This document shows, piece by piece, positions 9,303 to 15,709 of a DNA stretch of 64,000 nucleotides. The stretch is taken from positions 124,001 through 188,000 of the forward strand of contig NZ_AZVB01000001.1 of assembly GCF_000513995.1 (NCBI RefSeq), read 5' to 3'. Positions within the stretch are counted from its first letter, which is position 1; each line of letters starts with the position of its first letter. The translations under genes and the position numbers were made by a program. This DNA is from Pseudoxanthomonas sp. J35 (GTDB lineage: Bacteria > Pseudomonadota > Gammaproteobacteria > Xanthomonadales > Xanthomonadaceae). A model generated the notes under the pieces. That model saw only the letters and a program-made list of their open reading frames with translations, ran no database searches and had not been told where the DNA came from.

Positions 9303-10791
<1,489 letters not shown>

Positions 10792-12395: not shown

Positions 12396-14300
12396 TTACG
12401 CCAACTGCTGCGAACGCAGCGTCTCGGCGAAGGCGGACACCGACATTGTGCCCAAATCTTCCCCGGAACGCGTACGCACCGCCACGGCGCCGTTCTCCTT
12501 CTCGCGGTCCCCGACCACCAGCAGGTACGGCACCCGCTGCAGCGTGTGCTCGCGGATCTTAAAGCCGATCTTCTCGTTGCGCAAATCGGCCTCGACCCTG
12601 AACCCTTGATTTGCAAGGGTTTTCCGGACCTCGTCCGCGTATTCAGCCTGGGCGTCGGTGATGTTCATGACCACCGCCTGGACCGGGGCCAGCCAGGCCG
12701 GGAAGGAGCCGGCGTGGTGCTCGATCAGGATGCCGATGAACCGCTCCATGGAGCCGACGATGGCCCGGTGCAGCATGACCGGGTGCCGGCGCTGGCTGTT
12801 CTCGTCCACGTACTCGGCACCCAGGCGGCCCGGCATCATGAAGTCGACCTGCATGGTGCCCAGCTGCCAGGTACGGCCGATCGCGTCCTTGAGGTGGTAC
12901 TCGATCTTCGGGCCGTAGAAGGCGCCCTCGCCCGGCAGCTCCTGCCACTCCACGCCGGAGGCGCGCAGGGCCGAACGCAGCGCGTCCTCGGCCTTGTCCC
13001 AGGTGGCATCGTCGCCCAGGCGCGAATCCGGGCGCAGCGCGATCTTGATCTGGATGTCCTCGAAGCCGAAGTCGGCGTAGACCTTCAGCGCCTGCTCGTG
13101 GAAGGCGCGGACCTCCGACTCGACCTGGTCCTCGGTGCAGAAGATGTGGCCGTCGTCCTGGGTGAAGCCGCGCACGCGCAGGATGCCGTGCAGCGCGCCG
13201 GAGGGCTCGTTGCGGTGGCAGGAGCCGAACTCGCCGTAGCGGATCGGCAGGTCGCGGTAGCTGTGCAGGCCCTGCTTGAAGATCTGCACGTGGCCGGGGC
13301 AGTTCATCGGCTTCACCGCGTAGGTCCGCTTCTCGGACTCGGTGAAGAACATGTTGTCCTTGTAGTTGTCCCAGTGGCCGGACTGCTTCCACAGGCTCAC
13401 GTCCAGGATCTGCGGGCAGCGCACCTCGCCGTAGCCGGTGCTGCGGTAGATCCGGCGCATGTACTGCTCCACGACCTGCCACACCGACCAGCCCTTCGGG
13501 TGCCAGAACACCAGGCCCGGGGCCTCTTCCTGCAGGTGGAACAGGTTCTGCTGCTTGCCGATGCGGCGGTGGTCGCGCTTCTCGGCTTCCTCGATGCGCT
13601 GGATGTAGGCCTTCAACTGCTTCTCGTCGGCCCAGGCGGTGCCGTAGATGCGCTGCAGCTGCTCGTTCCTGGCGTCGCCGCGCCAGTAGGCGCCGGAGAT
13701 GCGCAGCAGCTTGAACGCCTTGAGGAACCGGGTGTTGGGCACGTGCGGGCCGCGGCACATGTCCACGTATTCCTGGTGGTAGTACAGGCCCATCGCCGTG
13801 ACCTCCGGGCCCATGTCCTCGATCAGGCGCAGCTTGTAGTCCTCTCCGCGCTCCTTGAAGACCTTGATGACCTCCTCGCGCGGGGTCATCTTCTTGACCA
13901 CGTCGTAGTCCTGGGCGATCAGCTCGCGCATGCGCTGCTCGATCGCGGCCAGGTCCTCGGGGGTGAACGGGCGCTCGGAATAGATGTCGTAGTAGAAGCC
14001 CTCGGCGATCACCGGGCCGATGACCATCTTCACGTCCGGGTACAGCTGCTTGACCGCGTGTCCGACCAGGTGCGCGCAGGAGTGGCGGATGATCTCCACG
14101 CCCTCCTCGTCCTTGGGGGTGATGATGCGCAGGGTGGCGTCGTGGTCGATGACGTCGGAGGCGTCGACCAGGCGGCCATCGACCTCGCCGGCCACGGTGG
14201 CCTTGGCCAGGCCGGCGCCGATGGACTGGGCGACCTGCATGACGGTGACGGGGGCTTCGAACTCGCGGCGGCTGCCGTCGGGAAGGGTGATCGTGATCAT
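12396..14300 (-). CDS. thrS: Threonine--tRNA ligase
   Basis: 634 residues. ATG 14300 gives the TGS domain start ([28 protein letters not shown]). This is followed by the editing domain ([17 protein letters not shown], the HxxxH zinc/editing motif), the class II catalytic core ([45 protein letters not shown]) and a C-terminal anticodon domain. It charges tRNA(Thr) and clears Ser-tRNA(Thr). Its 5' region holds a Thr leader peptide, a terminator and an inverted heptamer array (14308-14504), so expression is probably attenuated by threonyl-tRNA level. Confidence 0.97.
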
Positions 14301-14307
14301 CTGGAGC

Positions 14308-14406
14308 CGGGATTCGGGATTCGGGATTGGGGATTGGGGATTCGAGTGGCGGGAGCCGGGCGGGCGGGACGGCCTGGCCGACCCCGGATCTCCAATCCCG
14401 AATCCC
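14308..14406. repeat. Inverted GGGATTC/GGGATTG heptamer arrays in the thrS leader
   Basis: A left array of about five units spans about 14308-14345 (gggattcgggattcgggatt, then gggg-attg units). A right array at 14392-14406 (ccaatcccgaatccc) is complementary to it. In the thrS mRNA the arrays could form a stem of at least 15 bp a few bases before the thrS start codon. It is the same family as 9183-9296 and 34776-34804. Confidence 0.75.
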
Positions 14407-14448
14407 GTTGGCCGCATCGCGGCCAACAAAAAAGCGCCTCGAGGGCGC
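14407..14448 (-). terminator. Attenuator terminator upstream of thrS
   Basis: On the minus strand, GCGCC (14448-14444), loop CTCGA and GGCGC (14438-14434) are followed directly by six T (14433-14428). A perfect 9-bp hairpin (GTTGGCCGC/GCGGCCAAC, 14427-14407) comes next. The terminator lies 30 bp after the stop of a leader peptide with three Thr codons. The GCCGAGG just after that stop could pair with CCTC and GGC of the terminator region, an arrangement that would exclude the terminator stem. Confidence 0.8.
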
Positions 14449-14477
14449 CAGCTGGAAGTCCGGGGCCTCGGCGGCGT

Positions 14478-14504
14478 TCAGCGGTGGGCGGTGGTAGTGC
14501 TCAT
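14478..14504 (-). CDS. thrS leader peptide MSTTTAHR
   Basis: Eight codons, ATG 14504 to TGA 14478: Met-Ser-Thr-Thr-Thr-Ala-His-Arg with consecutive ACT ACC ACC. It is followed 30 bases later by a Rho-independent terminator and then by thrS. This is the layout of a ribosome-mediated transcription attenuator: shortage of charged tRNA(Thr) would stall the ribosome on the Thr codons and favour read-through into thrS. The Shine-Dalgarno is weak. In E. coli, thrS is controlled by translational autorepression, whereas a Thr/Ile leader controls thrABC. Confidence 0.75.
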   Translation of the reverse strand: MSTTTAHR

Positions 14505-14677
14505 GTCGCACGCTCGGCCGGCGTTTCCGCGGGCCACCTTGTGACTGCCGCGCCGGCACCCTGCCGGCCGCGATGGCGCCGATTCTACCCCGCCCCCGGG
14601 ACGGCGCAAACCCGGCGCCGGCGGTGGCATCATGCCACCTGCACCACGGGATCCGGTCCGGAGGGGGGGCCGGGCGC

Positions 14678-15709
14678 ATGAGCATCAAGGGCAAGGCCAC
14701 ATCGCTGGACATCGCGCACCTGGCGGGGGTCTCCCAGCCGACGGTGTCGCGCGCCCTGCGCGGCAGCCCCTCGGTCAACCCGGAGACCCGCGAGCGGATC
14801 CTGGCCATCGCCCGGCAGCTCAACTACAAGGTCGACAAGAACGCCTCCAACCTGCGCTGCCAGCAGTCCGGCACCCTGGCCCTGCTGTTCTTCGAGGACC
14901 CGACCCCGGACGACTCGCTGATCAACCCGTTCTTCCACTCGATGCTCGGCTCGATCACCCGGGCCTGCGCCCTGCGCGGCTACGACCTGCTGGTCTCCTT
15001 CCAGCAGCTGTCGACCAACTGGCACGCCGACTTCGAGGACAGCCACAAGGCCGACGGCCTGATCCTGCTCGGCTACGGTGACTACCTGGAATCGGAGTCG
15101 AAGCTGCAACAGCTGGTGGCCCAGGGCACCCACTTCGTGCGCTGGGGGGCGGCCCTGCCCGGCGAGCCGGGCGTGTCGATCGGCTGCGACAACTTCCAGG
15201 GCGGCCACGACATCACCGCCCACCTGCTGGCCCGGGGCCGCCGCCGGATCGCCTTCCTCGGCCATGCCTCGAACCACTACCCGGAGTTCTTCGAGCGCTA
15301 CCGCGGCTATGCCGGGGCGCTGCGCGCGGCCGGGCTGGAGCCGGACCCGGCGCTGCAGGCCGACGCCATCACCACCGAGCAGGCCGGCCATGCCGCCGCG
15401 CGGGCGCTGCTCGACGCGGGGGCGCAGTTCGACGCCCTGTTCGCGGCCAGCGACCTGATCGCGCTGGGGGCGATGAAGGCCCTGCGCGAGCACGGCGCGC
15501 GGATCCCGGAGGACGTGGCGGTGGCCGGCTTCGACGACATCGCCATGGCCAGCTTCGTCCAGCCGGGCCTGTCCACCGTGCAGCAGGACACCAAGCAGGC
15601 CGGCGAGGTGCTGGTCGACAGCCTGATCCGGCTGATCCAGGGCGAGCGGGTGGAAAGCCGCACCCTGCCGGTGAAGGTGGTGCTGCGCGGCTCCAGCGGC
15701 GCGGGCTGA
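14678..15709 (+). CDS. LacI family transcriptional regulator (maltodextrin locus)
   Basis: 343 residues from ATG 14678 with a strong GGAGGGGG Shine-Dalgarno. The helix-turn-helix TSLDIAHLAGVSQPTVSRALRG (residues 7-28) and hinge helix (about 50-60) are standard for LacI. The periplasmic-binding-like domain includes DALFAASDLIALGAMKALREHG. Its position beside amylase, sugar porter, GH97 and TonB receptor genes suggests it senses maltose or maltodextrin. A LacI-type site with an ATACGTAT core appears at 18975-18982 and 21458-21465, a plausible target; none is seen before its own gene. It converges with the GH13 gene. Confidence 0.9.
   Translation: MSIKGKATSLDIAHLAGVSQPTVSRALRGSPSVNPETRERILAIARQLNYKVDKNASNLRCQQSGTLALLFFEDPTPDDSLINPFFHSMLGSITRACALRGYDLLVSFQQLSTNWHADFEDSHKADGLILLGYGDYLESESKLQQLVAQGTHFVRWGAALPGEPGVSIGCDNFQGGHDITAHLLARGRRRIAFLGHASNHYPEFFERYRGYAGALRAAGLEPDPALQADAITTEQAGHAAARALLDAGAQFDALFAASDLIALGAMKALREHGARIPEDVAVAGFDDIAMASFVQPGLSTVQQDTKQAGEVLVDSLIRLIQGERVESRTLPVKVVLRGSSGAG

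Follow-up and report, generated by a model that had tools for sequence, protein, structure and literature searches.

A predicted threonine leader-peptide attenuator before thrS in Pseudoxanthomonas sp. J35 and its relatives

The threonyl-tRNA synthetase gene thrS of Pseudoxanthomonas sp. J35 is preceded by an eight-codon uORF with adjacent Thr codons and by an intrinsic terminator, and the occurrence of this pair in relatives is far beyond chance: the core of the leader is found in 78 of 80 upstream regions, and codon 3 of the uORF encodes Thr at 119 of 119 loci among the matches listed. Comparison of the leaders and modelling of their folds make it highly probable that thrS is controlled by ribosome-mediated transcription attenuation that responds to the supply of charged tRNA-Thr. 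The sequence-only reading of this DNA had proposed such control, and the proposal is supported by the kept Thr codons, the terminators, the coevolution of linker and terminator, and a mean switch in masked folding. What goes beyond that reading is a conserved hairpin 5' of the uORF, a second leader type, a near-fixed rare ACT at codon 3 and the loss of the terminator in one genus, g17.

Layout of the leader and its operon

We use "the window" for the whole stretch of 64,000 nucleotides that was analysed; all features described here lie on its minus strand. The uORF MSTTTAHR (14478-14504; ATG AGC ACT ACC ACC GCC CAC CGC TGA) has its Thr codons, ACT ACC ACC, at codons 3-5, and the earlier coordinates of this eight-codon frame, 14504-14478, hold. 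Abutting its ATG is the conserved GAGCGTGCGAC (14505-14515), in which GTG and GAC are invariant in 71 rows of the alignment. Upstream of it, the comparative alignment places hairpin P1, GGCC-C-GCG-GAAA-CGC-C-GGCC (14516-14535), and 5' of P1 is AAGGTGG (14534-14540), the best anti-Shine-Dalgarno match of the leader. A possible -10 box, TAGAAT (14582-14587), and, 16 nt before it, a possible -35 box, TTGCGC (14604-14609), were picked out by eye, and TAGAAT was also seen by eye 5' of the element in several relatives; a consensus promoter scan of 14200-14800 listed no promoter, so TTGCGC-16-TAGAAT (14609-14582) is an assignment by eye only.

A linker of 28 nt, which contains CGAGG, separates the uORF stop from the intrinsic terminator GGCGCC-CTCGA-GGCGCT-TTTTT (14428-14449), a 6-bp stem followed by a T-run. 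A terminator before thrS had been claimed from the letters, and a scanner finds the stem and T-run at 14449-14428 as the sole terminator-like site in 14200-14800 (mean of 0.2 in shuffles). In the predicted antiterminator (14435-14476), which has comparative support, GCCGCCGAGGCCCC of the linker is paired with the terminator segment; its core would be formed by CGAGG (14470-14466) and CCTCG (14444-14440). The idea that GCCGAGG after the uORF stop pairs across the terminator is thus retained as CGAGG/CCTCG, inside a longer predicted antiterminator. Rfam at gathering score reported no known leader, its sole match in the window being a tRNA elsewhere.

thrS (12396-14300; Pfam TGS, tRNA_SAD, tRNA-synt_2b and HGTP_anticodon) begins with an ATG at 14300, 127 nt past the terminator T-run. 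It is the first gene in the order thrS-infC-rpmI-rplT-pheS-pheT, in which thrS and infC were assigned by Pfam and the others are genes of the ORF list that we take to be rpmI, rplT, pheS and pheT. Right after the T-run stands a hairpin, GTTGGCCGC-GAT-GCGGCCAAC (14407-14427), which some relatives also have by eye. The interval from the terminator to thrS holds a dispersed repeat (GGGATTCGGGATTGG / CCAATCCCGAATCCC; 14300-14407), which forms an inverted repeat immediately 5' of the thrS ATG; when 14290-14700 was searched against the own genome, 28 additional partial matches came up, almost all of them to the repeat. The rplT-pheS gap holds a terminator-like hairpin, GGGGAAGGGCGCGAGTCCTTCCCCATTTGTTTTT, 5' of pheS (10316-10400), and no Phe-rich uORF was obvious by eye in those positions.

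Conservation of the leader and its threonine codons

thrS was detected in 194 of the 198 genomes of the window's family. The 80 upstream regions were hand-picked among the matches listed to span close and distant ThrS, and the core found in 78 of them consists of the hairpin region-GTGYGAC-ATG and the uORF; in the other two, one locus (L059) has the terminator only and one (L084, genome G089) has no leader in front of thrS. A DNA motif scan, the pattern of which stops at the uORF ATG and is therefore blind to Thr codons, yielded at least 119 loci. Among the matches listed, the Thr at codon 3 is written ACT 113 times, ACG 3, ACA 2 and ACC once; codon 4 is Thr in 104 of 119 (ACC 79, ACG 18, ACT 4, ACA 3) and codon 5 in 42 of 119. 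Codons 3-5 hold three Thr at 35 of these loci, two at 76 and one at 8, so that 111 of the 119 have two or more. Six of the 119 read Thr-Arg(CGA)-Thr, with a codon-3 wobble base that varies too. These loci and the wobble changes at codon 4 argue that conservation extends beyond the bases to the amino acid. Strict conservation is confined to the first Thr codon; the remaining uORF positions drift, giving 90 distinct peptides among the matches listed. Alignment of the relatives' leaders had been set beforehand as a check, and the earlier claim came through it, with Thr at codon 3 in all 119 matches listed and a terminator called by the finder in 69 of 78 leaders (L047 doubtful, L083 mis-assigned) and in 114 of 119 among the matches listed.

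thrS follows the element by 93-296 nt at 116 of the 119 loci among the matches listed; at the other three (L128, L165 and L190) the stored DNA runs out before thrS, so at all 116 loci that could be tested the element stands in front of thrS.

The same counts bear on the alternative that the uORF is a sensor of translation as a whole, such as of initiation at a hairpin-separated site, and that its Thr codons serve as an early slow step. Such a device would fit the strict retention of the first Thr alone, as ACT in 113 of 119 among the matches listed, and the choice of codons: ACT makes up 2 of the 69 Thr codons in the window's thrS, infC, rplT, pheS and pheT, so the leader's first Thr uses a rare codon, and CGA, used by the Thr-Arg-Thr leaders, makes up 2 of the 184 Arg codons in these five genes. 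However, other slow codons could replace Thr, and instead Thr persists with changed wobble bases; every testable locus among the matches listed precedes thrS; and the second leader type described below has retained Thr at codon 2 and, in most cases, at codon 4. We therefore consider general sensing improbable.

A covariance model, R1, which comprises P1 and the uORF, has one strong match in the own genome (94.1 bits; the next has 18.5). At E<=1e-5 its matches cover 180 of the 198 genomes in the window's family and 105 of the 117 in a second family, f12. At 49 bits or more it matches 36 of 121 genomes of the order, 19 from the window's family, 16 from f12 and 1 from f3. At E<=1e-6, four of 274 class genomes match, three in the window's family and one, L245, outside the order and without thrS nearby, which was taken as chance. 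All 12 of the f12 loci read lie before thrS. The genera with the motif, among the matches listed, include Pseudoxanthomonas, Luteimonas, Lysobacter, Stenotrophomonas, Xanthomonas, Thermomonas and others, and also Rhodanobacter, Dyella, Luteibacter, Frateuria, Fulvimonas and Dokdonella, the last six of which probably represent f12.

Linker-terminator pairing and the modelled switch

In the attenuation that we favour, transcription would start 5' of P1, to judge from the -10-like box, and a ribosome would load on the eight-codon uORF through AGGUGG, which the sequence places across P1 from the AUG. When Thr-tRNA is short, the ribosome would stall at codons 3-5, the free linker would pair with the terminator segment and RNA polymerase would read into thrS. 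When Thr-tRNA is plentiful, the ribosome at the stop would cover the linker, the terminator would form and thrS would be off.

The linker is complementary to the 5' arm and loop of the terminator, and changes in the loop are accompanied by changes in the linker, as in the matching linker:loop pairs CGAGG:CCTCG, CAAGG:CCTTG, CCAGGC:GCCTGG and CCCAAG:CTTGGG. Across 64 type 1 leaders, the linker-terminator duplex scores -18.69 kcal/mol with the leader's own partner and -16.95 kcal/mol with swapped partners, and 0 of 100 swaps were as good. For the 47 leaders with ThrS less than 71% identical, which are mostly of the second family but include L146 (Thermomonas, with a cut thrS), the values are -15.04 and -14.71 and 12 of 100 swaps were as good; shuffled linkers reach -13.57 at best.

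With codon 4 in the A-site, 13 of 14 hand-picked leaders fold an antiterminator that absorbs both terminator arms. In equilibrium folding of 62 leaders (linkers of 15-34 nt, L083 left out), with a model ribosome that bars P-site -12 to +15 from pairing, the mean probability of the terminator is 0.32, 0.30 and 0.28 with codons 3, 4 and 5 in the A-site and 0.745 with the ribosome at the stop (medians 0.16, 0.09, 0.02 and 0.90). Linkers swapped between species (12 draws) give 0.48 at codon 5 (0.39-0.54) and 0.76 at the stop, and shuffled linkers (12 draws) give 0.65 and 0.74, which nearly removes the difference. The linker therefore appears to lower termination with an early stall and not with the ribosome at the stop. 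Taken singly, 37 of the 62 leaders show a rise above 0.3, 1 a fall above 0.3 and 24 neither. The 47 leaders with the more distant ThrS have values of 0.55, 0.56 and 0.64 when stalled at codons 3, 4 and 5, and 0.79 at the stop, versus 0.69 (0.64-0.75), 0.69 (0.64-0.74), 0.68 (0.61-0.71) and 0.74 (0.70-0.78) when shuffled; at codon 5, their own linkers do no better than shuffled ones (0.64 against 0.61-0.71).

Averaged over relatives, coevolution and masked folding support the predicted steps from stall to readthrough and from stop to termination. The mutually exclusive stems anticipated in the sequence-only reading are borne out in part: a competing antiterminator is predicted and coevolves, but the window's own leader hardly switches at equilibrium (0.00 without a ribosome, 0.07 and 0.00 at codons 3 and 4, and 0.17 at the stop), and the stability of a single-sequence fold of 14583-14420 is not above that of its own shuffles (z +1.16). 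Leaders with uORFs of six codons (L017, L022, L023 and four more among the matches listed) keep the linker in position, so a ribosome at their stop should not cover it; masked folding of L017, L022 and L023 gave no switch.

By the finder, the terminator is lacking in 9 of 78 leaders, among them all three of genus g17. In this genus it is gone in 8 of 8 genomes, the last five judged by eye, and the uORF start and Thr codons are kept; one of the five further genomes (L297) has also lost the uORF stop. The genus is Xanthomonas-like: its leader L035 shares uORF and linker with that of Xanthomonas codiaei (L169), which is itself without a terminator, and a terminator is present in X. massiliensis (L127) and X. 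maliensis (L144). Decay of the device or a change to Rho-dependent control may account for g17. The retention of uORF start and Thr codons without a terminator would also suit the view that uORF and terminator yield a short terminated RNA of an ordinary kind and do not control thrS, as would genome G089, where leader and thrS are on different contigs. That view is hard to reconcile with an antiterminator pairing that coevolves and with a place before thrS kept in every one of the testable loci among the matches listed, and we regard it as very improbable.

The front half of the leader, a second leader type and known systems

The core alignment holds 71 of the 78 leaders (L010, L014, L016, L023, L027, L037 and L051 were left out). 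P1 is paired in 96.1% of cells and has two-sided changes at 5 of its 7 pairs (70 distinct rows). For P1 and a second helix together, there are 19 two-sided cells versus 3.4 in shuffles (0 of 500), a figure inflated by relatedness, and 5 pairs with two-sided change versus 2.5 (13 of 500), the second helix contributing none. This second hairpin, GUGC-GACAUGA-GCAC, which would hide the uORF AUG, was rejected: two of its four pairs are invariant, the other two fail to form in 9 and 15 of 70 rows, and no pair has a two-sided change. AGGTGG was also considered, by eye only, as a partner of CTACC within the uORF; this was dropped because uORFs of the sister family have ACG in place of ACC with no compensating change. 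Type 1 leaders give weak indications of an outer stem that joins the linker to the segment 5' of P1 (own -17.09, swapped -16.49, equalled by 0 of 40 swaps; for two other choices of segment, by 2 of 40 each), and in type 2 such a stem is suggested (own -15.36, swapped -13.65, best of 60 swaps -15.4).

The second type came from 20 genomes without an R1 match (10 of 18 such genomes in the sample of the window's family and 10 of 12 in that of f12), 15 of which have it before thrS. It consists of a GAG-containing stretch, CGTAGTTC-nAAn-GAAC-ACGATCACC-ATG-ACG-CGA/C, and then a linker and terminator; the peptides begin MTRT, MTRN, MTRV or MTRI, with Thr at codon 2 and mostly also at codon 4. The other five of the 20 are G102, with MGTTTYHL and no P1, G049, with a degenerate type 1 leader (MVTSR), and G003, G073 and G275, in which no uORF was seen by eye before thrS. 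A type 2 model has matches in 13 of 200 genomes of the order, of which 12 belong to families f2 and f3 and the thirteenth is again G291; thrS lies 100-141 nt downstream by measured distance in 8 of the 13 matches, and the uORF was seen in the other 5. It found nothing in 274 class genomes, which says little, as none of these is a known positive. The type 2 linker-terminator duplex scores -16.98 with its own partner and -14.60 when swapped, with 0 of 100 swaps as good (21 distinct leaders), and masked equilibrium folding of type 2 gave no switch (0.93, 0.90 and 0.93). Since the type 1 leaders with Thr-Arg(CGA)-Thr resemble a bridge between the types, the two uORFs may be related despite their different-looking hairpins.

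The stronger match to the 16S tail is the one 5' of P1 in 76 of 78 type 1 leaders, with a mean of -8.1 kcal/mol versus -5.3 kcal/mol between P1 and the AUG (18 versus 13 positions scanned). The exceptions, L075 and L078, have no P1 5' of the ATG, and in them AGGTG abuts CGACATG; G102 is a third hairpin-less variant with a Shine-Dalgarno match adjoining the AUG. In type 2, the upstream site is the better one in all 23 rows, L283 being a repeat of L256. The sequence suggests a ribosome site with its spacing set by the intervening hairpin. By comparison with its leader, the own start of thrS has a weak 16S-tail match (mean -2.2 kcal/mol, 78 leaders). Because the Shine-Dalgarno site lies 5' of a conserved hairpin in both types (GGCC/GGCC in type 1, GUUC/GAAC in type 2), initiation might need the hairpin looped out on the 30S subunit. 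The uORF could then be a two-input sensor in which 30S loading, perhaps its IF3 state, and Thr-tRNA supply jointly decide readthrough into thrS-infC. Two hairpins in the same layout, Thr at codons 2-5 and the presence downstream of infC, which we take to encode IF3, prompt this speculation, which we think unlikely to be correct.

The textbook example of translational self-repression by a synthetase through RNA mimicry is E. coli thrS, whose operator lies at the thrS ribosome site and is bound by ThrRS. The excerpted text of PMC2965389 names this autoregulation and mentions ThrRS for E. coli only. Were ThrRS to bind and repress its own leader here too, P1 and the bases before the AUG would be the operator and the uORF incidental, and P1 and GAGYGUGYGACAUG do look more conserved than a plain ribosome site requires. 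The target gene and the use of leader RNA are the same as in E. coli, but here uORF, antiterminator and terminator lie upstream, the element being 93-296 nt before thrS (116 loci, among the matches listed) and not at its ribosome site. By eye, the loops of P1 are variable and contain no anticodon-like bases; type 2 has another hairpin and keeps Thr codons and antiterminator, and an operator would leave the kept Thr codons and the coevolving antiterminator without explanation. We judge such an operator to be improbable. As the Thr uORF and its switchable stop are widely kept in the Pseudoxanthomonas-Lysobacter-Rhodanobacter group, sensing of charged tRNA by the uORF ribosome, and not the E. coli thrS mechanism, is probable.

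Attenuation by charged tRNA-Thr would place this leader beside thrL, pheL/pheM, hisL and trpL, the enterobacterial attenuators, with which it shares a short uORF with codons for the sensed amino acid, a terminator and a competing antiterminator. Unlike them, it controls thrS, mostly has eight codons, with Thr at codon 3 (type 1) or 2 (type 2) and no long runs, and has a conserved hairpin 5' of the uORF and no separate pause hairpin that we could identify. T-box leaders of Gram-positive synthetase genes likewise sense tRNA charging by antitermination. A T-box identity was rejected: neither the Rfam gathering score nor a cutoff as loose as E 10 gave a covariance-model match, and the GG of GTGGCC sits in the covarying stem P1. 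Leader-peptide attenuators also stand before the synthetase genes trpS and leuS of Streptomyces, for other amino acids and in another phylum (PMC1262725, in the excerpted text). For Streptomyces lividans thrS, the excerpt of PMC8079986 proposes a Thr leader peptide of 18 aa with two Thr, transcribed leaderless, and its authors call termination unclear; that peptide is likewise before thrS, in another phylum, and by eye shares only the Thr-Thr pair with ours. A Thr leader before thrS as such has therefore already been proposed elsewhere. We found no report of a thrS leader-peptide attenuator for the present bacterial group in open-licence PMC full text, and the leader is thus a known kind of mechanism at a target without such a report, with an unusual front half. 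If the attenuation is real, a large gammaproteobacterial group regulates thrS through the charging of tRNA, using an attenuator whose leader peptide is very short, and has replaced the front end of this device by another while retaining Thr codons and switch. The hairpin-less natural variants would show what a hairpin between Shine-Dalgarno and AUG does, and g17 what remains after terminator loss; both leader types are candidate new RNA families.

A tRNA-Val(GAC) gene lies 5' of the thrS leader in 7 of 11 loci scanned (L072, L075, L078, L080, L082, L085 and L087). In G089, an intact type 1 leader and terminator are followed by a phage-type integrase gene on one contig (L278, about 850-2401), and thrS is on a separate contig behind a CTTTTTTGTT stretch that resembles the tail of the terminator; an integrating element may have inserted at the attenuator terminator, using the terminator as its site.
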